This document shows positions 5,518 to 39,950 of a stretch of 59,981 nucleotides of DNA, piece after piece (within the stretch, counting starts at the first letter, position 1; each line of letters opens with the position of its first letter). The stretch is from a virus. Location: positions 1-59,981 of IMG/VR virus record IMGVR_UViG_3300032293_001960; one strand, written 5' to 3'. The notes under the pieces were generated by a model. It saw nothing but the letters and a program-made list of their open reading frames with translations. It was not told where the DNA came from and ran no database searches. Made by a program: the position numbers and the translations under genes.

Positions 5518-6818
5518 TTGACGTACTCCCCGGCCTGAAGGCGGGAGATTCTCGGATCTTCAGGAGCCCTCATGGTGCTTCCCCTCCCCGAGCTTCTCTA
5601 GCGCCCAGCCCGGACGCTGAATGGATTCCACGCTTGAGCACCACCTGAGCGGCGGCTACATCCCGATCGGCGGTGTAGCCGCACTCCGGGCAGTCGTGGA
5701 CACGAACACTGAGATCCTTCGGCACTGCCGCCCCGCACTCGGGGCATTGCTGGCTGGTGCCCCTGGCATCCACCTTCTTCACGCAGACGCCACGCTTCAG
5801 CCCGACCCATTGCAGGATCGAGATGAACTGGCTCCAGCCTGCATCGAGCACCTGCTTCGACAGGTTGCCGCGTGCCATCCCTGCGATGTTCAGCGCCTCA
5901 ACCACGATGGTGTCGGCGGTGTCGCAGAGCCGGTGGGCTTCCTTGAAGTGGAAGTCCTTGCGGACATTGCTCAGGCGTTCGTGTTGCCTGGCGAGACGGT
6001 GCATGGCGATGCGCCAGCGGCTGCTCCCCTTGCGCTTCTTCGATGCCGAACGGTTCAGCTCTTTCAGCCTGTGTTGTCCGGTCTCGAAGAAACGGGGATT
6101 GGCCACCAACTCACCGGCACTGGTCGCCAGGAAGCTTTTGATGCCGACATCGACGCCGATCGCATTGCCGTGCGGCTGCGGTTCGGGGATGTCGATGTCC
6201 TGCTCAAGCGAGAGCATGGCGTAGAAGCCAGACGCTCGCTTGACGATCCGCACCTGCTTGACGATGGCGCCATCAGGCAGCGGACGAGACTGGCGTAGCT
6301 TCACCCAGCCGATCTTCGGCAGGCTGATGCGGCCAGCAGATAACACCTGCTTGTTCAACTGTGGGAACAGGAAAGACCTGATCCGTTTCTTGAACCTTGG
6401 GAAGCCCAGTCCTCGCTCCCATGTCGCCACAAAGGATGCCTCCAGGTTGCGGAGGACTTGCTGGAGAACATGGGTGTGAGGTTCCTTCAGCCATGGCCGT
6501 GATGGCTTGGCGGCTGCCAATGCAGCGCACTGCTTGGCGAAGGTGGGCTTGGGTGCATCCGGCGGAATGATGTACTCCTGCCGGATCGAGCAGGCGTTGA
6601 CGGGTGATTTCTTCGCACGAGCGAAGTCCCGTCGCTCAGCCAGGGCGTAGTTCCAGACGCCTTTGCAGATATCCAGCCAGCGGTCGAAAGTCTCGACCTG
6701 GGCGGGCGTCGGCAGCAGCTTGAACTCGTAGGTCTGGTTAAGCATGACTAAATGCTAGCCGTTTTCTTCAGGCTGTGCTGGACAAGGCTTTGAGGGAAAG
6801 CCGCCCTGAAGGGCGGGG
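5518..6818 (-). mobile_element. IS200/IS605-family element with tnpB only (IS1341-like)
   Basis: The element holds a complete tnpB but no tnpA, so mobility would need TnpA in trans, for example from the elements at 20.6 or 38.3 kb. On the minus strand the left end has TCAAG then the hairpin CCGCCCTTCAGGGCGG (6801-6816). The right end has a CGGCCTTCAGGCCG-type hairpin and ends in GTCAA (5518-5522). There is no target duplication, as expected for the family. Confidence 0.8.
5570..6745 (-). CDS. tnpB: TnpB RNA-guided endonuclease (IS1341-like)
   Basis: The 391-residue protein has all three RuvC carboxylate motifs: GVDVGIKSFLAT, VVEALNIAG and CGYTADRDVAAAQ. It also has a four-cysteine zinc ribbon (CPECGAAV...CPECGY). 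TnpB uses an omega RNA from the element's right end to cleave DNA next to a target motif. Here the 3' hairpin and following guide would lie below 5570. The upstream flank TCTCAAG is the expected target-adjacent motif. Catalytic residues look intact. It is less similar to the other two TnpBs in the window than they are to each other. Confidence 0.93.
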   Translation of the reverse strand: MLNQTYEFKLLPTPAQVETFDRWLDICKGVWNYALAERRDFARAKKSPVNACSIRQEYIIPPDAPKPTFAKQCAALAAAKPSRPWLKEPHTHVLQQVLRNLEASFVATWERGLGFPRFKKRIRSFLFPQLNKQVLSAGRISLPKIGWVKLRQSRPLPDGAIVKQVRIVKRASGFYAMLSLEQDIDIPEPQPHGNAIGVDVGIKSFLATSAGELVANPRFFETGQHRLKELNRSASKKRKGSSRWRIAMHRLARQHERLSNVRKDFHFKEAHRLCDTADTIVVEALNIAGMARGNLSKQVLDAGWSQFISILQWVGLKRGVCVKKVDARGTSQQCPECGAAVPKDLSVRVHDCPECGYTADRDVAAAQVVLKRGIHSASGLGAREARGGEAP

Positions 6819-19275: not shown

Positions 19276-20637
19276 ATGTTCAACGCTGATTTCTACCCTA
19301 CTCCGCCCGAGGTGGCGGCGACCATGTTGGACCCGTTGGACCTTCGCGGTCGCACCGTGCTGGAGCCTTCTGCCGGCAGCGGCAACCTGGTGCGCGAGTG
19401 CCTGGCCCGTGATGCTGCTGAGGTGCTCTGGTGCGAGCCGGAACCTCAGCTGCGAGCGATCCTGCACAGCCTGCCCGGCGGTTACTACCTGGGCCACGAT
19501 TTTCTGCAGGTTCAGGCTCACCAGGTCAGTCATGCGGATCTGATCGTGATGAACCCGCCGTTCAGCACCGATGAGTCCCACATCCTGCATGCGTGGAATG
19601 TGGCCCCACCAGGCTGCGAAATCGTGGCGCTCTGCAACTGGAACACCATCTCCGGCCAGTACCGTGGCCTACAGGTTCAGCTGGCGCAGCTGATCGAAGG
19701 TTACGGCAGTAGTGAAGCCCTAGGCGAGTGCTTTGCTGACTCTGAGCGCCCCACTCGTGTCTCAGTCGGCATGGTCCGCCTCACCAAGCCAGGGCAACGT
19801 GCAAGCGGCGCTGATGAGTTCGACGGTTTCTTCCTCGGACCTGATGACATCGAAGCCCAGCAGGGTGAGGGGCTGATTCCTTACCGTCGCAGCCGCGACA
19901 TTGTGAACCGCTATGTGGAGGCGTGCCGGATTTTCGATGAACAAGTGGCGGCCGGCGTGCGGTTGCGCAGCGTGCTAGATGGCTTCTTCGGCAAGGATCT
20001 AGGCCTGCAGGTCACGATCGAAGGCCAGGCGGTCACGCGCAACCGGTTCAGGAAGGATCTGCAGAAGCGGGCCTGGCAGCACGTCTTCGATGAGTTCCTG
20101 CCACAGCAGATGGCCACCAGCCAGCTAGCAAAGGACATCAACCGGTTCGTGGAGGATCAGAGCAAGATCCCGTTCACCGAGCGCAACATCTACCGGATGC
20201 TCCAGATCGTCGCCGGCACCCAAGAGCAGCGGATTGATCGTGCAGTGGAGGAAGCGATCGACAGCCTCACCCGCTACACGAAGGAAAACCGCTATGGCGT
20301 GGAGGGCTGGGCGACGAACTCGGGCTACATGCTGAATCAGCGGTTCATCCGTGGATTCCTTGCGGAACTGGCCTGGAGCAACCCCGGCAAAGTGCGTCTC
20401 AAGACCTACGGCAGTCAGTGGGATGAGATCCAGGATCTGATCAAAGCGCTGTGTTTCATCACCGGCCGCGCCATCGAGGAAGTGCGCACGCCTGAGCGGA
20501 TCAATGAGAACAGCTACGAGTCCGGCATGTGGCACGACTGGGGGTTCTTCCTGTTCCGCCCCTACAAGAAGGGCACAGTGCATTTTGAGCCTTGGCACTG
20601 GGATTCAACCCTCCCCCTTCAGGGGGACTTTCCTTGA
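19276..20637 (+). CDS. Adenine-type DNA methyltransferase with DUF4942-like region, 3' end altered by an IS
   Basis: The N-terminal domain has FYPTPPEVAATML, motif I VLEPSAGSGNLV and motif IV IVMNPPF, the layout of N6-adenine methyltransferases, although the NPPF tetrad also fits other amino-methyl transferases. The long C-terminal region ends in WGFFLFRPYKKGTVHFEP, as in DUF4942 proteins. The last eight or so codons are supplied by the left end of the inserted IS. Joining the two IS flanks restores a natural end HWDSTTQQGSQPM, so activity is probably kept. It may protect phage DNA from host nucleases. Confidence 0.85.
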   Translation: MFNADFYPTPPEVAATMLDPLDLRGRTVLEPSAGSGNLVRECLARDAAEVLWCEPEPQLRAILHSLPGGYYLGHDFLQVQAHQVSHADLIVMNPPFSTDESHILHAWNVAPPGCEIVALCNWNTISGQYRGLQVQLAQLIEGYGSSEALGECFADSERPTRVSVGMVRLTKPGQRASGADEFDGFFLGPDDIEAQQGEGLIPYRRSRDIVNRYVEACRIFDEQVAAGVRLRSVLDGFFGKDLGLQVTIEGQAVTRNRFRKDLQKRAWQHVFDEFLPQQMATSQLAKDINRFVEDQSKIPFTERNIYRMLQIVAGTQEQRIDRAVEEAIDSLTRYTKENRYGVEGWATNSGYMLNQRFIRGFLAELAWSNPGKVRLKTYGSQWDEIQDLIKALCFITGRAIEEVRTPERINENSYESGMWHDWGFFLFRPYKKGTVHFEPWHWDSTLPLQGDFP

Positions 20638-21020
20638 TTCTCGATGTACTGGCGGATCACGGTGATCGGAGCCCCCCCGCAAGAACCGGCGAAGTAGCTT
20701 GGACTCCATAGGTGTTCTGCGTGGGGGCGCAGCGGGAACTCCTTGCGAAGCATCCGGCTGGATACGCCCTTCATGGCGTTCACGATCCCGGCCACCGATT
20801 GCTTGGGCGGGTACTCGACCAAGAGGTGAACGTGATCGGGCTCACCGTTCAACTCCAGCAACACGCAGTCCAGCTTCTGGGCAACACCCTGGCAGACCTC
20901 CCGCATCCGGTCCAGCTCCGCATCACCTAAGACCTTGCGCCGGTATTTGATCGTGAAGACCAAGTGGACCACAAGCCGAGAAACGCTGTGCCGGCCTCGC
21001 CGAAGCTTGTCTAGTTGCAT
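20619..21020 (-). CDS. tnpA: IS200-type HUH transposase TnpA
   Basis: A 133-residue Y1 transposase with the HUH pair in PDHVHLLVEYPP and the C-terminal catalytic tyrosine in VIRQYIENQ. It cuts and joins single-stranded DNA at the hairpin ends, giving peel-and-paste transposition. Length and motifs are complete. The stop lies in the left-end hairpin. It is closely related to the copy at 38299. Confidence 0.93.
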   Translation of the reverse strand: MQLDKLRRGRHSVSRLVVHLVFTIKYRRKVLGDAELDRMREVCQGVAQKLDCVLLELNGEPDHVHLLVEYPPKQSVAGIVNAMKGVSSRMLRKEFPLRPHAEHLWSPSYFAGSCGGAPITVIRQYIENQGKSP

Positions 21021-21048
21021 GGCAAACCCAAGTTGGTATGCTGTTGGG

Positions 21049-22332
21049 ATGAAGGCACGTTACCGCTTCCGCCTGTATCCGCATCCGCACCAGCGCATCG
21101 CGTTGGCGCAGCTGTTCGGCTGCACCCGGCGGGTGTGGAACGATGCCCTGGCTCACTGCCAAGGGCTGCGGGCAGCGGGCAAGAAAACACCTTCTGGCTA
21201 CGCCCTGCGTAACTGGATGTCCGCCGCCAAAGCAGGTGTCCCTTGGCTCGCAGCGGCACCCTCAACGCCGCTGTGCGAATCGGTGCTGGACTTGGCGGTT
21301 GCCTACAAGAACTTCTGGGCCAGCTGCACTGGTAAGCGCAAGGGGCCGAAGGTGCGGGCGCCTCGCTTCAAGTCGAAGCGAGACAGCCGCCAGGCCGCTC
21401 GGTTCACGAAGGTGGCCTTTCGCTGCCATGAACGCACCCTGCAGCTCCAGAAAATCGGCAAGGTGCCCATCGAGTGGAGCCGGGATCTACCGGCGGAGCC
21501 CAGCTCTTGCACGGTGATCCGTGATGCCTCGGGCCGCTACTTCGCCTCCTTTGTAGTGGAAGTGGCTGGCGCCAACTCCTGCGCCATTCGCCCCCAGGAA
21601 GGGCGAGCCATCGGCATTGACTTGGGCTTGGCATCCCTCGCCATCACCTCTGACGGCGAAAAGGTGCCCCTGCCAAAGCACTTCGATGCGGCGCGGAAGC
21701 GGCTGCGTCACCTGCAGCGGCAGGCGGCGAGGAAACGCCGTTGTGTCTCCAAGGGCACGAAGGCATCGAATCGCCTCAAGGCCGTGGATCGCAAGATCGC
21801 CAGGCTTCACGCCAGAGTTGCAGACCAGAGAACCAATGGGCTGCACCAACTGACGAGCCGCCTGGTGCGCGATCACGACTTCATCGCCATCGAGGATCTC
21901 AATGTGTCCGCGATGCTGAAGGCGCCGAAGCCGGTGCTGGATGAAGCGATGGCTCGCTGGCTGCCCAATGGCCGCGCCTCAAAGCGTAGCCTGGCCCGTG
22001 GCATCTCCGATGCTGGCTGGGCCACCTTCCGCACCATGCTGGAGCAGAAGGCCGACCGTGCCGGTAAACGGGTGGTGGCGGTGAACCCCGCCTACACCAG
22101 CCAGCGGTGCAACCACTGCGGCCACACCGAAGCCGCCAACCGCCCGAAGCAGGACACCTTCCGGTGCCAGAGCTGCGGGCACACCGAATATGCCGACATC
22201 AACGCGGCACGAAACATCTTGGAGGCCGGACTGGCCTTGTCTGGACGTGGAGCCTTGCGTAATTCCGAGCCTCGCTTGGTTGCTGGCTGCGAAGCGTCAA
22301 CCCACCTGAAGGTGATGGCTCATGCAGCCTGA
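21049..22332 (+). CDS. tnpB: TnpB RNA-guided endonuclease
   Basis: A 427-residue protein from MKARYRFRL. RuvC motifs are IGIDLGLASLAIT, IAIEDLNVSAM and CGHTEYADINAARNI, and the zinc ribbon is CNHCGHTE...CQSCGHTE. All acidic catalytic positions are present. The upstream frame to 20935 overlaps tnpA on the other strand and is not the start. The omega-RNA scaffold should be the transcript 3' region ending at the 22349-22375 hairpin, with the guide from methyltransferase-flank DNA. Confidence 0.93.
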   Translation: MKARYRFRLYPHPHQRIALAQLFGCTRRVWNDALAHCQGLRAAGKKTPSGYALRNWMSAAKAGVPWLAAAPSTPLCESVLDLAVAYKNFWASCTGKRKGPKVRAPRFKSKRDSRQAARFTKVAFRCHERTLQLQKIGKVPIEWSRDLPAEPSSCTVIRDASGRYFASFVVEVAGANSCAIRPQEGRAIGIDLGLASLAITSDGEKVPLPKHFDAARKRLRHLQRQAARKRRCVSKGTKASNRLKAVDRKIARLHARVADQRTNGLHQLTSRLVRDHDFIAIEDLNVSAMLKAPKPVLDEAMARWLPNGRASKRSLARGISDAGWATFRTMLEQKADRAGKRVVAVNPAYTSQRCNHCGHTEAANRPKQDTFRCQSCGHTEYADINAARNILEAGLALSGRGALRNSEPRLVAGCEASTHLKVMAHAA

Positions 22333-24649: not shown

Positions 24650-24799
24650 ATGACTGTTACTCCTGAACAGGTGATCCAGATTTTGGGATCAGCTCTGCTG
24701 ATTTCAGAACTCCTGGCGCAGATTCCCTGGATTAAGGCCAATAGTATTTTTCAGCTTATCACGGGAGTGCTGCGGAGTCTGCTTAAAAAAAAGAACTAG
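24650..24799 (+). CDS. Holin-like small membrane protein (zero-frame product)
   Basis: A 49-residue protein with a hydrophobic stretch (ILGSALLISELLAQIPWI) and a second weakly hydrophobic helix (SIFQLITGVLRSLL) before KKKN. It lies directly before the lysozyme and could be a holin or signal anchor. The final codons CTT AAA AAA AAG AAC TAG contain the heptamer A_AAA_AAG in the zero frame. A -1 slip there enters the lysozyme frame, which is open from this point. Confidence 0.6.
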   Translation: MTVTPEQVIQILGSALLISELLAQIPWIKANSIFQLITGVLRSLLKKKN

Positions 24800-25542
24800 A
24801 CCCAAAGCTCCTCGACCTACTAAATCGCTATGGCGTAGTAGGTAAGGCAGCCAAGCTGTATCTACAGCGTTATGTCAAGCGTATAAACGTATGGCTCAAA
24901 ACCTATTTTATACCCGCAACAGTCACCGAAGCTGAAGAGCAGTACTTCAAAGAAGCACCGGTACCTCCTCCACCTGACCCGATTCTTATTGAGCATCCAA
25001 TTGACCCAACAACTCAGACTGGCGCCAGTGCTGCATTAGGCGGGTCCTTATCCATCCACGCCCCTTGGTCTATGCAACCCGCGATTGATTTGATCACCGA
25101 GTTCGAGGGCTTTTCCTCCAAGGCCTACCCCGACCCCTTGTCTGGTGGCGAGCCCTGGACGATCGGCTACGGCTCCACCTATGTCAATGGCAAAAAGGTC
25201 CGCCGTGGGGATGTCATCACCAAGGAGCAGGCCATGGCGGAGGTGAGACGCGAGCTTGCCAAGATAGAGGCGAGGCTATCAAAACGCATCCCGTATTGGG
25301 CTGAGATGACATCCGGCCAGCGTGGTGCGCTGCTGTCGTTCGCCTGGAATCTCGGCGCGAATTTCTACGGCAGCGAGGGTTTTTACAGCCTCACCCGAGC
25401 GCTGCAAACCAAGGCCTGGAGCACTGTGCCTGCTCTTCTGGAGCGTTACCGCAATCCAGGCAGCGCAGTGGAGGTCGGCCTACGGAGGCGGCGCATTGCA
25501 GAGGGCCGCTTGTGGCAGCGTCCAGCAACCAGGGTTGGATAG
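24650..25542 (+). CDS. Predicted -1 frameshift fusion: membrane anchor - linker - GH24 lysozyme
   Basis: If ribosomes slip -1 at 24787-24793, the product is about 297 residues: 48 from the membrane ORF, then ELDPKLLDLLNRYGVVGKAA, a basic helix, a Pro-rich linker (EAPVPPPPDP), and the lysozyme. The linker region 24794-25071 has 93 codons in the lysozyme frame with no stop and no ATG, GTG or TTG start, so it is hard to explain otherwise. An indel in the A8 run is the main alternative. A membrane-anchored endolysin would resemble signal-anchor-release enzymes. Confidence 0.55.
24787..24842 (+). promoter_or_regulatory. -1 frameshift site: slippery heptamer and downstream hairpin
   Basis: The heptamer A_AAA_AAG (24787-24793) is the most slip-prone in bacteria and is correctly phased. 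A hairpin CCTACT/AGTAGG with an inner CGC/GCG stem lies at 24816-24842. It is 22 bases downstream, farther than the usual 5-9, so its role is uncertain. Confidence 0.55.
25072..25542 (+). CDS. Endolysin: T4-type lysozyme (GH24)
   Basis: From MQPAIDLITEFEGF there are 156 residues. The catalytic glutamate is in TEFEGF, followed by TIGYGST (the Gly-Tyr-Gly-x-Thr motif with its conserved Thr), and QRGALLSFAWNLG and GLRRRRIAEGRLW, as in P22/lambdoid-type GH24 lysozymes. It hydrolyses peptidoglycan at lysis. As a stand-alone product from 25072 it lacks a signal. The same frame is open upstream to 24787, which supports expression as a fusion (see separate entry). Confidence 0.9.
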   Translation: MQPAIDLITEFEGFSSKAYPDPLSGGEPWTIGYGSTYVNGKKVRRGDVITKEQAMAEVRRELAKIEARLSKRIPYWAEMTSGQRGALLSFAWNLGANFYGSEGFYSLTRALQTKAWSTVPALLERYRNPGSAVEVGLRRRRIAEGRLWQRPATRVG

Positions 25543-25591: not shown

Positions 25592-25617
25592 GGGGTGCGC
25601 CTGGGTCACCAACGCAC
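25592..25617 (+). promoter_or_regulatory. Shared 5' leader element, copy 1
   Basis: GGGGTGCGCCTGGGTC, three variable bases, then AACGCAC. An identical element precedes the gene at 26806 (copy at 26757-26782). Both lie 23-25 bases before the ATG. A short GC-rich hairpin can form, so it may be a translational operator. Confidence 0.55.
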
Positions 25618-25623
25618 AGTCCT

Positions 25624-25635
25624 CTCATCTACTAC
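25624..25635 (+). promoter_or_regulatory. CTCATCTACTAC leader motif
   Basis: CTCATCTACTAC ends seven bases before the DUF932 ATG. It is repeated at 27311-27322, as TTCATCTACTAC at 27608-27619 and as CTCATCTATTAC at 22903-22914, always shortly before a start codon. It may aid translation initiation where no Shine-Dalgarno is present. Confidence 0.4.
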
Positions 25636-25642
25636 CACCTTC

Positions 25643-26743
25643 ATGCATACAACCTTTCTTCGTCCCGGTAGCTACAACACCGTGACGCAGGCCGCCATCG
25701 CCCCTGGCAATGACGTAATGGTTTACGGCCGCTACCGCGAACGCGGCTACCACGTCGAGCCCCTCACCTCCCGCGCTGGTGGTGTCATCACCCCCGAAAA
25801 CGCTTCCGCTTCTGAAGCCTTTGCCCTGGCGGGCCTGAACTGGACGGCGGAGAAGTCCCCGGTGCTATACAGCCCTGACGGCTGGAAGGTTGCTATCTCC
25901 CCCGACCACTGCTCCATTGTCCGTTCCGATACGGGCGGTCTACTCGGTATCCACGGCGCCGGCCACACACCGCTCCAGCACAGCGCCATTATCACTGTCC
26001 TCGATTATATCCGCGAGGACATCCAGATCGAATCGGTGCTGAACATTCGCGAAGGCCGCAAGGTCTTGGTTTCTGCTGCCCTCAAGCTGCAGGACGAGGT
26101 GGTCCCCGGCGACCGCATCCGCCGCTACATCCACATTTTCAACTCCCACGACGGCTCCAGCGCCTTCGGCGTGATGTTCTCTGACAGGCGCCTCCGCTGC
26201 GCCAATGAGATCAACTTCATCACCGGCCGCGCCTTCCACAACGCCGTCGCTGAGGGCACCGGCCCCCGAGCCCGCCACACCGTCAACGTCGAGCAGTTCG
26301 CCCGTTCCCTGCCGGATCTGATCAACCTCCAGCAGAAAAGCTTCCACCAGCGAATTTGGGCAATGCAGGACATGGCTGCCACACCCTGCACCATCGAGGT
26401 GGCCCGCCGCATCTTGGAGCAGACCTATGCCGATCGGCTCGCTACTCCCGTGAAGGAGCGCAACGGCGATACCCGTGCCCGCCATCTCGGCGACATCCGC
26501 GACTTCGACACGATCATGAGCCACTACCAGGGGGAGACCGGCTACGGCATCAACGACGACGCCCGTCCGATCGGCGGCACGGTCTACGGCCTGTACAACG
26601 CCATCACCCAGTTCCACACGCACGATGCTGGCCGCAGAACCGACGCCACCGAGCACGCCCGCGCCCGCCTGGAGTCCCTTTGGGGCGGTCCCAGCGCCAC
26701 CCGCGTAGAGAAGGCCTACCAGGCCTGCCTCGCCGCCTGCTGA
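25643..26743 (+). CDS. DUF932 phage/plasmid-like protein
   Basis: A 366-residue protein from MHTTFLRPGSYNTV. The order ALAGLNWTAEKSPVLY, PDHCSIVRSDTGGLLGIHG, FNSHDGSSAFGVMFSDRRLRCANEI and GTVYGLYNAITQFHTHDAGR is the DUF932 (TIGR03299) pattern. The family is common on phages and plasmids; its biochemical function is not settled. It is GC-rich with strong codon bias, suggesting high expression. A promoter candidate, shared leader and CTCATCTACTAC motif lie upstream. Confidence 0.85.
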   Translation: MHTTFLRPGSYNTVTQAAIAPGNDVMVYGRYRERGYHVEPLTSRAGGVITPENASASEAFALAGLNWTAEKSPVLYSPDGWKVAISPDHCSIVRSDTGGLLGIHGAGHTPLQHSAIITVLDYIREDIQIESVLNIREGRKVLVSAALKLQDEVVPGDRIRRYIHIFNSHDGSSAFGVMFSDRRLRCANEINFITGRAFHNAVAEGTGPRARHTVNVEQFARSLPDLINLQQKSFHQRIWAMQDMAATPCTIEVARRILEQTYADRLATPVKERNGDTRARHLGDIRDFDTIMSHYQGETGYGINDDARPIGGTVYGLYNAITQFHTHDAGRRTDATEHARARLESLWGGPSATRVEKAYQACLAAC

Positions 26744-28208: not shown

Positions 28209-28455
28209 CAACAGCAGCTTGATAAGCACTCTTATCAGTATAAGAAACCCATGGCGTTTCAGTCCTGGTGACACGGCTTATGTTCGTGGTTGGTCTCAGG
28301 ACTATCCAGTAACGATCGAGGCCCCAGCAGAGTTCGGCGAAGGCTTACGCCGCGTCACGGTCCCGCACTACCACTGCCGTGACCACCTGGGCGGCACCTG
28401 GCTGCTGAGCCAGCTGCATCTGTCCAGATCACCAATTTCGGAGCGCAAGCGATGA
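28198..28455 (+). CDS. Hypothetical protein with SH3-like segment
   Basis: 85 residues; WRFSPGDTAYVRGWSQDYPVTIEAP looks like a small SH3/KOW-like barrel. It overlaps the next gene as ATGA. Function unknown. Confidence 0.5.
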   Translation: MRNSNSSLISTLISIRNPWRFSPGDTAYVRGWSQDYPVTIEAPAEFGEGLRRVTVPHYHCRDHLGGTWLLSQLHLSRSPISERKR

Positions 28456-29168
28456 CAGCTAACCGGCCACTGCGCGGCGGCTCGTGGATCCACCTCCCGC
28501 ACGACTGCCGCGCCGCCTTCCGGCTCAGCGGCTACCCGGACAGCACCGGCTCCAACCTCGGCCTGCGTCCCTGCTGTATCCTTCCCCTCCCCCATTCATC
28601 TCTCAATCCCTCAGAAACCATGACGACCTCCAATCACACTATTTCCGCCTCTGCTCTCAACCTGCCCATGGTGTCCATCGCCCCAGGGCGCTTCATGATG
28701 GGATCCAATTCACCGTCGGCTTTCTCTGATGAGAAGCCGGTCCATGAGGTGATTATCGACAAGGGCTTCGAGATGGCGGAGACTCCGACCACCCAAGCCC
28801 AGTGGCGATGGGTCGCCGAGAACCTGCCCAAGGTCGAGCGCGATCTCGATCCTGATCCTTCGCGCTTCAAGGGCGACAGCCGCCCGGTCGAGCGCATCTC
28901 CTGGTATGACGCCATGGAATTCTGTGCCCGCCTCAGCCGGGCTACAGGCAAGACATACACCCTTCCCACCGAGGAACAGTGGGAGTACGCCTGCCGCGCA
29001 GGCACCACCACTGAATTCGCTTTCGGGGACACCCTCGATGAGTCCCAGGCACGCTTCAACGCAGACTCCACCTGCGATGTCAAGCAGTACAAAGCCAACG
29101 CCTGGGGCCTCTACGACATGCACGGGCAGGTCTTCGAGTGGTGCCTTAACGAGTACCAACCCTACTGA
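28452..29168 (+). CDS. FGE-sulfatase (SUMF1/PvdO-like) protein with RGGSW cassette placed in front and C-terminus missing
   Basis: The frame starts with an RGGSW cassette (LRGGSWIHLPHDCRAAFR, residues 7-36), then a linker, then an FGE-like domain from about residue 57: LPMVSIAPGRFMMGS, DEKPVHEVIIDKGFEM, RISWYDAMEFCARLS, YTLPTEEQWEYACRAG and GLYDMHGQVFEWCLNEYQP. A normal family member would continue into RVLRGGSW...GFRVV, but here a stop falls just before it. An internal ATG at 28620 could yield the FGE part alone. The catalytic cysteines of true FGE are in the missing part. It overlaps the upstream gene as ATGA. Confidence 0.75.
   Translation: MTANRPLRGGSWIHLPHDCRAAFRLSGYPDSTGSNLGLRPCCILPLPHSSLNPSETMTTSNHTISASALNLPMVSIAPGRFMMGSNSPSAFSDEKPVHEVIIDKGFEMAETPTTQAQWRWVAENLPKVERDLDPDPSRFKGDSRPVERISWYDAMEFCARLSRATGKTYTLPTEEQWEYACRAGTTTEFAFGDTLDESQARFNADSTCDVKQYKANAWGLYDMHGQVFEWCLNEYQPY
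28468..28577 (+). repeat. RGGSW cassette A (upstream, divergent copy)
   Basis: Encodes RGGSWIHLPHDCRAAFRLSG and on to GLRPC. It is the most diverged copy, with GLRPC in place of GFRVVC. It precedes the FGE core instead of following it. Confidence 0.7.
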
Positions 29169-29178
29169 TTCCCCTCCT

Positions 29179-29463
29179 ATGCACTCTGATCTGCGGGGCG
29201 GCTCCTGGGACAGCAACCCCGGGGACTGCCGCTCGGCCTTCCGCGACCTCAACCAGCCCGTCTATGCCAACGGCAACGTCGGCTTCCGTGTGGTGTGCCT
29301 CCCCGGGGAGGTAGCACCACCCCGGATGCTGCTGCGCGGCGGCTCTTGGGTCAACGACCCCAGGCTCTGTCGCTCGGCCTGGGGCGGCCACGCCCTGCCC
29401 GGCAATGCCAGCCTCAACTCCGGGTTTCGTGTGGTGTGCCTCCCCGGGGAGGTGACACCATGA
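29179..29463 (+). CDS. Tandem RGGSW (FGE C-terminal / C-lectin-like) cassette protein, two units
   Basis: The ORF opens 10 bases after the FGE stop in a different frame and encodes 94 residues holding two cassettes: RGGSWDSNPGDCRSAFRDLN... and RGGSWVNDPRLCRSAWGGHA..., each ending GFRVVCLPGEV. This is the C-terminal lobe of FGE-like proteins, including the CRSA and GFRVV core. The two units are separated by a shared APPRMLLRGG joint. Most differing codons are NNC, while the framework is fixed. The stop overlaps the next start as ATGA. Confidence 0.7.
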   Translation: MHSDLRGGSWDSNPGDCRSAFRDLNQPVYANGNVGFRVVCLPGEVAPPRMLLRGGSWVNDPRLCRSAWGGHALPGNASLNSGFRVVCLPGEVTP

Positions 29464-29753
29464 CAACTCGTGACACCCTTCGGCTGTTTCGCGTGCGCGG
29501 CGGCTCCTGGGACGGCTACCCCAGGTACTGCCGCTCGGCCTACAGCAACCACGCCCGGCCCGGCGATGCCAACGACGACGTCGGGTTTCGTGTGGTGTGC
29601 CTCCCCGGGGAGGTAGCACCACCCCGGATGCTGCTGCGCGGCGGCTCCTGGGACATTGGTAACTACCGGTTCTGCCGCTCGGCCTTCCGCTACCACTTCC
29701 AGCCCGACGTTGCCAACGACTTCATCGGGTTTCGTGTGGTGTGCCTCCCTGCC
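29190..29753 (+). repeat. Four RGGSW cassettes B-E with NNC variable codons
   Basis: Units begin near 29193, 29335, 29499 and 29637. They share GGCGGCTC(C/T)TGG, TGCCGCTCGGCC (one TGT) and GGGTTTCGTGTGGTGTGC-type blocks. B-C and D-E are joined by an identical segment GGGGAGGTAGCACCACCCCG. Between these blocks codons vary, with third base mostly C (GAC, GGC, GTC, TAC, AAC, TTC). Confidence 0.8.
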
Positions 29754-29804
29754 CCCGAGATCGTAGCCGCTGCTGCCCTCCGCGCCCTGGAGGACCATGG
29801 CTGA
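29460..29804 (+). CDS. Tandem RGGSW cassette protein, second pair
   Basis: 114 residues, MTTRDTLRLFRVRGGSWDGY onward, with two cassettes (RGGSWDGYPRYCRSAYSNHA..., RGGSWDIGNYRFCRSAFRYH...) followed by a helical tail (EIVAAAALRALEDHG) also seen in the gene at 29961. It starts in ATGA with the previous cassette gene. It could provide exchangeable ligand-binding lobes or be a remnant of duplicated targets. Confidence 0.65.
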   Translation: MTTRDTLRLFRVRGGSWDGYPRYCRSAYSNHARPGDANDDVGFRVVCLPGEVAPPRMLLRGGSWDIGNYRFCRSAFRYHFQPDVANDFIGFRVVCLPAPEIVAAAALRALEDHG

Positions 29805-38298: not shown

Positions 38299-38718
38299 TT
38301 AGGGCGGGGAGGAATGGCCTTCAGGACGATCCTGCTCAGCGATGTAGCGCCTGAGCGTTTCGATGGTGGCGCCGCCAGCACTTGAAGCGAAGTAGCTCGG
38401 ACTCCAAAGGTGCTCGCCGTGCGGACGCAAAGGGAACTCCTTGCGCAGCATCCGGCTCGACACTCCCTTGAGGGCGTTGACCAGGGCCGACACCGAGAGC
38501 GTTGGCGGGTACTCGACCAGCAGATGCACATGGTCGGCTTCGCCGTTGAACTCCAGCAACTGAAAGCCCATCTTTTCGGCGACACCGAGGCAGACCGCCT
38601 CCATTCGCTCAAGGTGCTCAGCCGTCAGCACGGCTCGCCTGTACTTGACGACAAAGACCAAATGGACGACCAGCCTGGAAACGCTGTGCCTGCCTCGCCT
38701 AAGCGGTTGCTGTGCCAT
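38299..38718 (-). CDS. tnpA: IS200-type HUH transposase TnpA
   Basis: 139 residues from MAQQPLRRGRHSVSRL. The HUH motif is in ADHVHLLVEYPP and the catalytic tyrosine in LRRYIAEQ. Highly similar to the TnpA at 20619 (RRGRHSVSRLVVHLVF, RMLRKEFPLRPH). The frame to 38913 covers tnpB sequence in reverse and is not the start. Confidence 0.93.
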   Translation of the reverse strand: MAQQPLRRGRHSVSRLVVHLVFVVKYRRAVLTAEHLERMEAVCLGVAEKMGFQLLEFNGEADHVHLLVEYPPTLSVSALVNALKGVSSRMLRKEFPLRPHGEHLWSPSYFASSAGGATIETLRRYIAEQDRPEGHSSPP

Positions 38719-38747
38719 TGCACCCCAAGTCTGGTATGGTGATTGGT

Positions 38748-39950
38748 ATGCAACTACGGTACCGCTACCGCTGCTACCCCAGCCCCGCCCAACAGCAGGC
38801 CCTGTCCCGCTCGTTTGGTTGTGCTCGGGTTGTTTGGAATGACGCCCTGGCCCTGAGCAACAAGCTCTATGCCGAGGGGGAAAAGTATCCGGGCGGTTCG
38901 GCGCTGATGGCACTGGTCATCACCAAAGCCAAGCGGACGCCGGAGCGGCAGTGGCTGACCGAAGCATCCCATTCGATGCTTCAGCAGTCAGTGCGTGACC
39001 TGGACCGTGCCTTTCGCAACTGGTGGGGTTCACTCACCGGCAAGCACAAAGGCAAGGCCAGAGCACCGCGTTTCAAGAAGCGGAGCAACGACCAGAGCAT
39101 CCGTATCTGCGGCAAGCAGTTCCGCGTCACCGAGGGCGGCGTCCGCTTCCCCAAGGTGGGTGATCTGCCTCTGGTTTGGTCACGACCGCTGCCAGCGGTG
39201 CCTTCCTCCTGTACCATCATCAAGGATGCGGCTGGTCGGTACTTCGCCAGCTTTGTTGTGGAAGTGGATCGGCCCCAACTGGAGCCCAACGGCAACACCG
39301 TGGGAATCGACCTGGGCCTGACGACCTTCGCCACGCTCAGCACTGGCGAGAAAGTGGATGCGCCTAAGCCCCTGCGTTCCGCCTCCAAGCGGCTACGCAA
39401 GCTGCAACGCAACCTCAGCCGCAAGACCAAAGGCAGCAACCGCCGCAACCGGGCGCGGGTGCAAGTGGCACGGCTTCATGCCCGCATCGCTGACACCCGT
39501 AAAGATTTCCTCGACAAGCTCAGCACTCGCATCATCCGTGAGAACCAAACGGTGGTGCTTGAGGATCTGAAAGTCTCGGGGATGATCCGCAACCGCAAGC
39601 TGGCCCGTTCCATTGCGGATGCAGGCTGGCGTCAGTTCCGCCTGCTGCTGGAATCCAAGGCCCTGATGTATGGCCGCACGGTCAACATCATCAGCACCTG
39701 GGAGCCAACTTCTCAGCGGTGCTCAGCCTGCGGAGAACTAGGCGGCAAGAAGCCGCTCAACATCAGGGCGTGGACCTGTCTGCACTGCGGTGCCGAACAT
39801 GACAGGGACATCAACGCCGCCAATAACATCGCCGCCGCCGGACAGGTGGAGGCACAAAACGGACGTGGAGCCAGGCGTAAGACGGGCTTGCCCGCTGCAG
39901 GCTGTGAAGCGTCAACCCAACAGAGGAGCAAGCAGTTATGCCTGCTCTGA
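38748..39950 (+). CDS. tnpB: TnpB RNA-guided endonuclease
   Basis: 400 residues from MQLRYRYRCY. RuvC motifs are VGIDLGLTTFATL, VVLEDLKVSGM and CGAEHDRDINAANNI, and the zinc ribbon is CSACGELG...CLHCGAEH. All catalytic carboxylates are present. The omega-RNA 3' hairpin lies at 39961. Its guide would read phage DNA just after 39988. Confidence 0.93.
   Translation: MQLRYRYRCYPSPAQQQALSRSFGCARVVWNDALALSNKLYAEGEKYPGGSALMALVITKAKRTPERQWLTEASHSMLQQSVRDLDRAFRNWWGSLTGKHKGKARAPRFKKRSNDQSIRICGKQFRVTEGGVRFPKVGDLPLVWSRPLPAVPSSCTIIKDAAGRYFASFVVEVDRPQLEPNGNTVGIDLGLTTFATLSTGEKVDAPKPLRSASKRLRKLQRNLSRKTKGSNRRNRARVQVARLHARIADTRKDFLDKLSTRIIRENQTVVLEDLKVSGMIRNRKLARSIADAGWRQFRLLLESKALMYGRTVNIISTWEPTSQRCSACGELGGKKPLNIRAWTCLHCGAEHDRDINAANNIAAAGQVEAQNGRGARRKTGLPAAGCEASTQQRSKQLCLL

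Follow-up and report, generated by a model that had tools for sequence, protein, structure and literature searches.

A conserved, very likely programmed -1 frameshift site at the end of a putative holin gene in cyanophages

What is the function of a slippery heptamer that lies one codon before the stop of a small membrane-protein gene, with an open lysozyme frame running on in the -1 frame? The question is raised by virus record IMGVR_UViG_3300032293_001960, whose 59,981 bases are hereafter called the window. Among large terminases, those of cyanophages come closest to its own, but at only ~30% identity. A zero-frame ORF (24650–24799; this and the other features of the locus are on the plus strand) encodes 49 amino acids (MTVTPEQVIQILGSALLISELLAQIPWIKANSIFQLITGVLRSLLKKKN), is holin-like by size and position, and ends CTT AAA AAA AAG AAC TAG, such that the heptamer A_AAA_AAG lies in the zero frame at 24787–24793 and the stop TAG (24797–24799) follows one codon later. 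From 24787 the -1 frame stays open up to a lysozyme stop at 25540–25542 (251 codons) and contains no ATG, GTG, or TTG upstream of 25072; the only near-cognate codons there are CTG at 24856 and some ATT, ATC, and ATA. An earlier note, drawn from this DNA without database searches, had described this arrangement and proposed programmed -1 frameshifting; the arrangement was confirmed in the sequence. Our answer is that the small membrane-protein gene, probably a holin gene, very likely ends in a programmed -1 frameshift site that adds a conserved extension—a conclusion resting on comparative sequence evidence, with no evidence at the protein level.

What would be made from this locus? Past the slip site, the -1 frame encodes a 93-amino acid extension (24793–25071) consisting of a basic helix, a Pro-rich linker, and a conserved QTGxSxxLGGxxSIHAPW end. 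It shares its frame with a GH24 phage lysozyme domain (25072–25542), whose ATG at 25072 could serve as an internal start. A Pfam match to Phage_lysozyme (PF00959, E 1.9e-22) satisfies the GH24 profile criterion, and the domain is 55% identical to the lysozyme of cyanophage S-CBS3; within it, EFEGFSSKAYPDPLSGGEPWT holds E-x8-D and then T as candidate catalytic Glu, Asp, and Thr, which were spotted by eye without a structural check. In the mechanism we propose, most ribosomes would stop one codon past A_AAA_AAG and release the 49-amino acid protein, while a fraction would slip back one base at the heptamer and append the extension. In the window, slipped ribosomes would read on through the extension into the lysozyme, giving a predicted trans-frame fusion (24650–25542, read as 24650–24793 and then 24793–25539) of 48 + 249 = 297 amino acids—a membrane hairpin, the extension, and a membrane-anchored lysozyme. 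The slip rate would then set the amount of anchored lysozyme relative to the free small membrane protein. That slipping occurs at useful rates is itself an inference.

Other features of the window were recorded in passing. A DUF932 protein (25595–26743) lies immediately downstream of the lysozyme. Three IS200/IS605-type loci, recognized by Pfam matches to OrfB_IS605, Cas12f1-like_TNB, and Y1_Tnp, comprise a lone TnpB on the minus strand (5570–6745) and two TnpA–TnpB pairs (20619–22332 and 38299–39950). At 28452–29804, an FGE-sulfatase-like protein is followed by three to four tandem copies, each of ~140–160 nt and in shifting frames, of an end reading RGGSW...CRSA..GFRVVCLP; these might be diversity-generating variable repeats, a suggestion made by resemblance only.

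How widespread is this layout among other phages? Querying viral contigs with the window's extension–lysozyme alone returned zero relatives, and tblastn with the 49-amino acid peptide gave matches only at E > 1. Relatives were obtained instead through a homologue in S-CBS3 and through alignments. The S-CBS3 homologue of the small protein has 46 amino acids and ends GGA AAA AAG CTC TAG; its -1 frame appears in the annotation as an ORF of its own, gp22, whose end (QTGDSRLLGGAMEIKAPWRRE) resembles the window extension (QTGASAALGGSLSIHAPW). The S-CBS3 fusion, used as a query, led to KBS-S-2A, S-CBS1, and S-EIVl and to the T7-like 7B11-B, WH11-B, and S-B28, all of which share its layout, so that both siphovirus-like and T7-like cyanophage isolates are represented. 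In 86 of the 94 loci fetched by protein similarity, a -1 extension overlaps the small ORF. Of 184 relatives, an alignment-guided scan blind to the heptamer retained 80 viral loci. Further loci were added by a heptamer-based pattern; these are left out of the counts of heptamers in 69 relatives and 28 clusters given below, and are included in the figures based on 87 or 88 clusters (stop spacing, start codons, dN/dS, and RNA folding). One entry in the cluster list, L080, proved to be a false positive. The layout is also carried by a single cyanobacterial contig, from a Synechococcaceae MAG (TTC CCA AAG CGC TGA), found by searching genomes with alignment A1.

Is the heptamer itself conserved? Protein similarity brought up 69 distinct relatives. 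In 68 of them a heptamer of the X_XXY_YYZ type lies in the zero frame (57 AAAAAAG, 4 GGGAAAG, and 7 CCCAAAG), the sole exception having a degenerate site (GGGAAAAAG in locus L163). One further locus, with a divergent small protein that the search expression missed, also has GGGAAAG (L188). At 80% identity, the heptamer is found in 28 of 28 clusters. The codon preceding AAA AAG varies (GGA, GCA, CCA, TCA, or CAA) and always has A as its third base, with a probability of ~1e-33 under local codon use when these clusters are treated as independent. Of 87 clusters, 79 have a single codon between the heptamer and the zero-frame stop, and the other 8 have none. Furthermore, none of 18 homologues without the extension has the heptamer in the last 33 bases, which were scanned (Fisher 3.5e-13). 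We count the fixed third-base A, together with the presence of the heptamer in all 28 clusters, as support for programmed -1 frameshifting.

Is the extension a protein under selection? Downstream of the zero-frame stop, the median dN/dS of the extension in relatives is 0.17, versus 1.27 and 2.08 when the same DNA is translated in the two remaining frames; the small protein itself, in the zero frame, likewise has a dN/dS of 0.17. Thus, the -1 extension is protein coding and under purifying selection. By alignments (A2 and A6) and structure prediction, its first half is helical and, after a Pro-rich linker, it closes with a short beta stretch at SIHAPW; the extension model has a predicted helix at residues 15–54 plus strands. 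No start-codon position in the extension is conserved across clusters, and 37 of 88 lack any ATG, GTG, or TTG in the first 30 codons. These results bear on several claims of the earlier note: the 93 linker codons that it judged to be coding are so by the dN/dS of the relatives' extensions, the heptamer and open linker that it suggested looking for in relatives are conserved, the start codon at the linker that would have counted against it was not found in any conserved form, and its programmed frameshift is supported by comparison, protein-level proof being absent.

Foldseek with the extension model gave two matches at E < 0.001, both to short unnamed proteins, and an S-PM2 protein matched at low TM. 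The ending ETGxFGxEGWSIxITNP is common to the extension and to T4-GC 410 (phrog_6464) of T4-like cyanophages (hhalign E 1e-4, probability 58, a weak match); at the loci seen (L220, 1423–1959; L221, 1267–1662; L222, 1267–1653) T4-GC 410 is a stand-alone protein away from lysis genes. The extension may therefore exist elsewhere as a protein in its own right, although a match this weak allows no more than the possibility.

How is the extension related to the peptidoglycan hydrolases beside it? In 67 of the 74 loci that have a downstream ORF, the start of that ORF lies 1–77 nt before the extension stop, most commonly 26 nt. Domains found in 68 such ORFs, often in combination, were Phage_lysozyme (47), Peptidase_M15_3 (40), Peptidase_C39_2 (19), and Glucosaminidase (12). 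Since the end of the extension overlaps the hydrolase start, slipped ribosomes would, in most relatives, finish at the start of the hydrolase gene; that they raise hydrolase translation is inferred. An in-frame fusion of extension and lysozyme occurs at only two of all the loci, the window and L227 (IMGVR_UViG_3300034198_016918), and scans by fixed spacing, guided by the lysozyme, or guided by the small protein revealed no others. The two are 56% identical over the extension–lysozyme and 50% over the small protein, and the slip region of L227 reads GGA AAA AAG GGC TAA. Slipped ribosomes in L227 would, as in the window, produce a membrane-anchored lysozyme. Possible internal starts (ATG 25072 in the window; ATG 4778 and GTG 4709 in L227) mean that both might also make some free lysozyme; there is no Shine-Dalgarno-like motif just upstream of ATG 25072.

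A ~55-amino acid N-terminal region, RLxDLFxYYKxLPHQ...WFxTW, is conserved on cyanophage endolysins whose catalytic domains differ widely. It occurs in 63 of the 68 separate hydrolases (e.g., L002 at 1824–2903, and also L003 and L006) and has no Pfam match. Both fusions lack it, and one untested reading is that the fused extension could stand in for its role. The earlier note's fused, anchored lysozyme alongside a free holin-like peptide is thus supported for the window and L227, including the second in-frame fusion as a relative with the same heptamer and open linker; what the note missed is a frameshift that is family-wide, with the fusion as its rare form. Most relatives, we infer from sequence, would make a tailed membrane protein instead. 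That tethering of the lysozyme matters for lysis is likewise inferred.

Is the small protein a holin? Its model has predicted helices at residues 5–23 and 32–46, forming a two-helix hairpin whose insertion in the membrane is inferred, and its size (49 amino acids, with these helices) and place beside an endolysin fit two of the criteria for holins. Its neighborhood consists of peptidoglycan hydrolases and, in T7-like cyanophages, it lies between the tail fiber and small terminase genes; in T7, holin gene 17.5 occupies that position. Positively charged C-terminal residues hint at a cytoplasmic C terminus, the topology being unresolved. No annotated holin family matched in Pfam or NCBIfam, PHROGs gave only weak matches to families of unknown function (3509 and 22542), and Foldseek with the small-protein model returned no matches. 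We therefore regard holin identity as likely, inferred from size, predicted fold, and gene position only, and permeabilization as an inference; to this extent, with no library naming the family, the holin-like character first proposed for the protein held in part. A group of hairpin proteins related to the window small ORF (GALLAISEALALIPGIKANSIFQLV; L319–L330), most without heptamer or extension, was also seen. Several of them adjoin C39-like or M15-like proteins, and related hairpin proteins without the extension also adjoin endolysin-like genes. They could be candidate holins from a family that has no name and seems to be broad.

What might stimulate slipping? A Shine-Dalgarno-like GGAG (24774–24777) lies 9 nt upstream of the heptamer; it is a possible stimulator of uncertain role, and a four-base match of this kind is present in only 8 of 87 relatives. 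A predicted RNA stem-loop with a CCTACTA..TAGTAGG core (24807–24851) begins 13 nt past the heptamer and is another possible stimulator; the usual spacing is 5–9 nt, which the window exceeds. Folding of the window RNA gave -19.9 kcal/mol (z -2.3) for 24794–24860 and z -3.4 for 24794–24900. Across relatives, RNA 5–75 nt downstream is more stably folded than its shuffled versions (mean z -1.4 vs. -0.4 and -0.7 in control stretches). Clear consensus folds emerged in two of six groups (z -3.2 and -3.5) and in none of the other four; because folds are so uneven across groups, a downstream RNA stimulator is only partly supported and remains a possibility. The number of lysine tRNAs matters for slipping on A_AAA_AAG. 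None was among 30 tRNA loci fetched from the Synechococcaceae MAG, an incomplete genome that does not settle the count in cyanobacterial hosts.

Which other explanations survive? The one that fares best accepts the frameshift and gives the small protein a role other than holin: extended, it might for example position the hydrolase as an adaptor, act as a spanin-like part, or belong to the virion. This is possible: every library leaves the family unnamed, and the related-looking ending of T4-GC 410, itself weak evidence, is not beside lysis genes. Against it stand the small hairpin size, the constant neighborhood of peptidoglycan hydrolases, and, in T7-like cyanophages, a position that is the place of gene 17.5 in T7.

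A second alternative denies any programmed frameshift, with the extension made by reinitiation or from a noncanonical start and the lysozyme from ATG 25072. In its favor, that ATG is near where the free S-SRM01 lysozyme begins, GenBank lists S-CBS3 gp22 and S-CBS1 gp23 as separate ORFs, and at TGA stops the overlapping -1 codon is often CTG. However, the extension has no conserved start position, 25072 is not preceded by a Shine-Dalgarno-like motif, and in the 22 clusters that stop at TAG, a C or T just before the stop makes the overlapping -1 codon CTA or TTA, neither of which is a start. This account also leaves the conservation of the heptamer unexplained, and we consider it very unlikely. 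Equally improbable is slippage of RNA polymerase, rather than the ribosome, on the A run to yield the trans-frame product: the run is A8 in the window and A6–A7 in most relatives, but GGGAAAG or CCCAAAG at the same place, as also in the Synechococcaceae MAG contig, offers no long homopolymer and suits tandem tRNA slipping. Finally, a sequencing or assembly indel in A8 (24785–24792), which the earlier note had allowed could hide a plain in-frame fusion, is all but excluded: this is the window's only A-run of at least eight and one extra A would fuse the frames, but the exact heptamer–codon–stop–extension layout recurs in many phages (87 clusters, many contigs, and isolates, some with only three to six A) and the L227 fusion shows the same arrangement.

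Programmed -1 frameshifting at this site thus remains our preferred reading. No joined CDS at the locus appears in the annotated phage records examined, and the literature searched—most subscription papers being outside its reach—holds no description of this frameshift in phage lysis genes. Within these records and this literature, -1 frameshifting is of a known kind; a phage lysis cassette that uses it, and the lysozyme fusion, appear to be new. The finding brings to light a conserved stretch of protein that is either left unannotated or called a separate ORF in S-CBS1, S-CBS3, KBS-S-2A, S-EIVl, S-B28, 7B11-B, and WH11-B. Few cyanophage holins have been studied and the timing of cyanophage lysis is little described; a conserved recoding site joining a putative holin to a hydrolase is a defined, mutable control point. 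A bolder reading, toward which we lean slightly less than away, makes one joint claim: that many siphovirus-like and T7-like cyanophages govern lysis by -1 frameshifting in the holin gene, with the slip rate setting the ratio of free to tailed holin and delivering ribosomes to the endolysin start, and that in one lineage the endolysin has become a frameshift-dependent, membrane-tethered fusion. If true, this would be a recoding-based lysis clock. Phage lysis would join the known uses of -1 frameshifting, which is directly testable in culturable phage–host pairs.

How does the site compare with known systems? Like Escherichia coli dnaX (tau/gamma), the window has a zero-frame A_AAA_AAG, a sequence reported as much more shift-prone in E. 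coli than the other sites compared (PMC5009743), as well as a GGAG-like element 9 nt upstream and a predicted downstream stem-loop. Unlike dnaX, its stem-loop is 13 nt away, its Shine-Dalgarno-like element is not conserved in relatives, and its slip would lengthen the product by a domain instead of cutting one short. Signal-anchor-release (SAR) endolysins also carry a GH24-type lysozyme on an N-terminal membrane segment, but the SAR anchor is in-frame; the criterion of an anchor within the same ORF is not met in the window, where the anchor comes from an ORF in another frame and would be joined by frameshifting, with topology unknown. The lambda S105/S107 holin and antiholin similarly derive two lengths of protein from one small membrane-protein gene, although the functional parallel is unproven; the lambda forms differ at the N terminus through two start codons, whereas the cyanophage frameshift would alter the C terminus. 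In RNA phage MS2, ribosome frameshifting has been proposed to open access to an overlapping lysis gene (PMC10885494), much as we propose for the cyanophage hydrolase; to our knowledge, MS2 has neither a conserved slippery heptamer nor a selected trans-frame extension. Alphavirus 6K/TF involves unrelated proteins, a eukaryotic virus, and no link to a cell-wall hydrolase, but it is the closest functional parallel: there, a conserved heptamer in the gene for a small membrane-permeabilizing protein directs -1 frameshifting to an alternative C terminus, with diverse downstream stimulators (PMC2569925).
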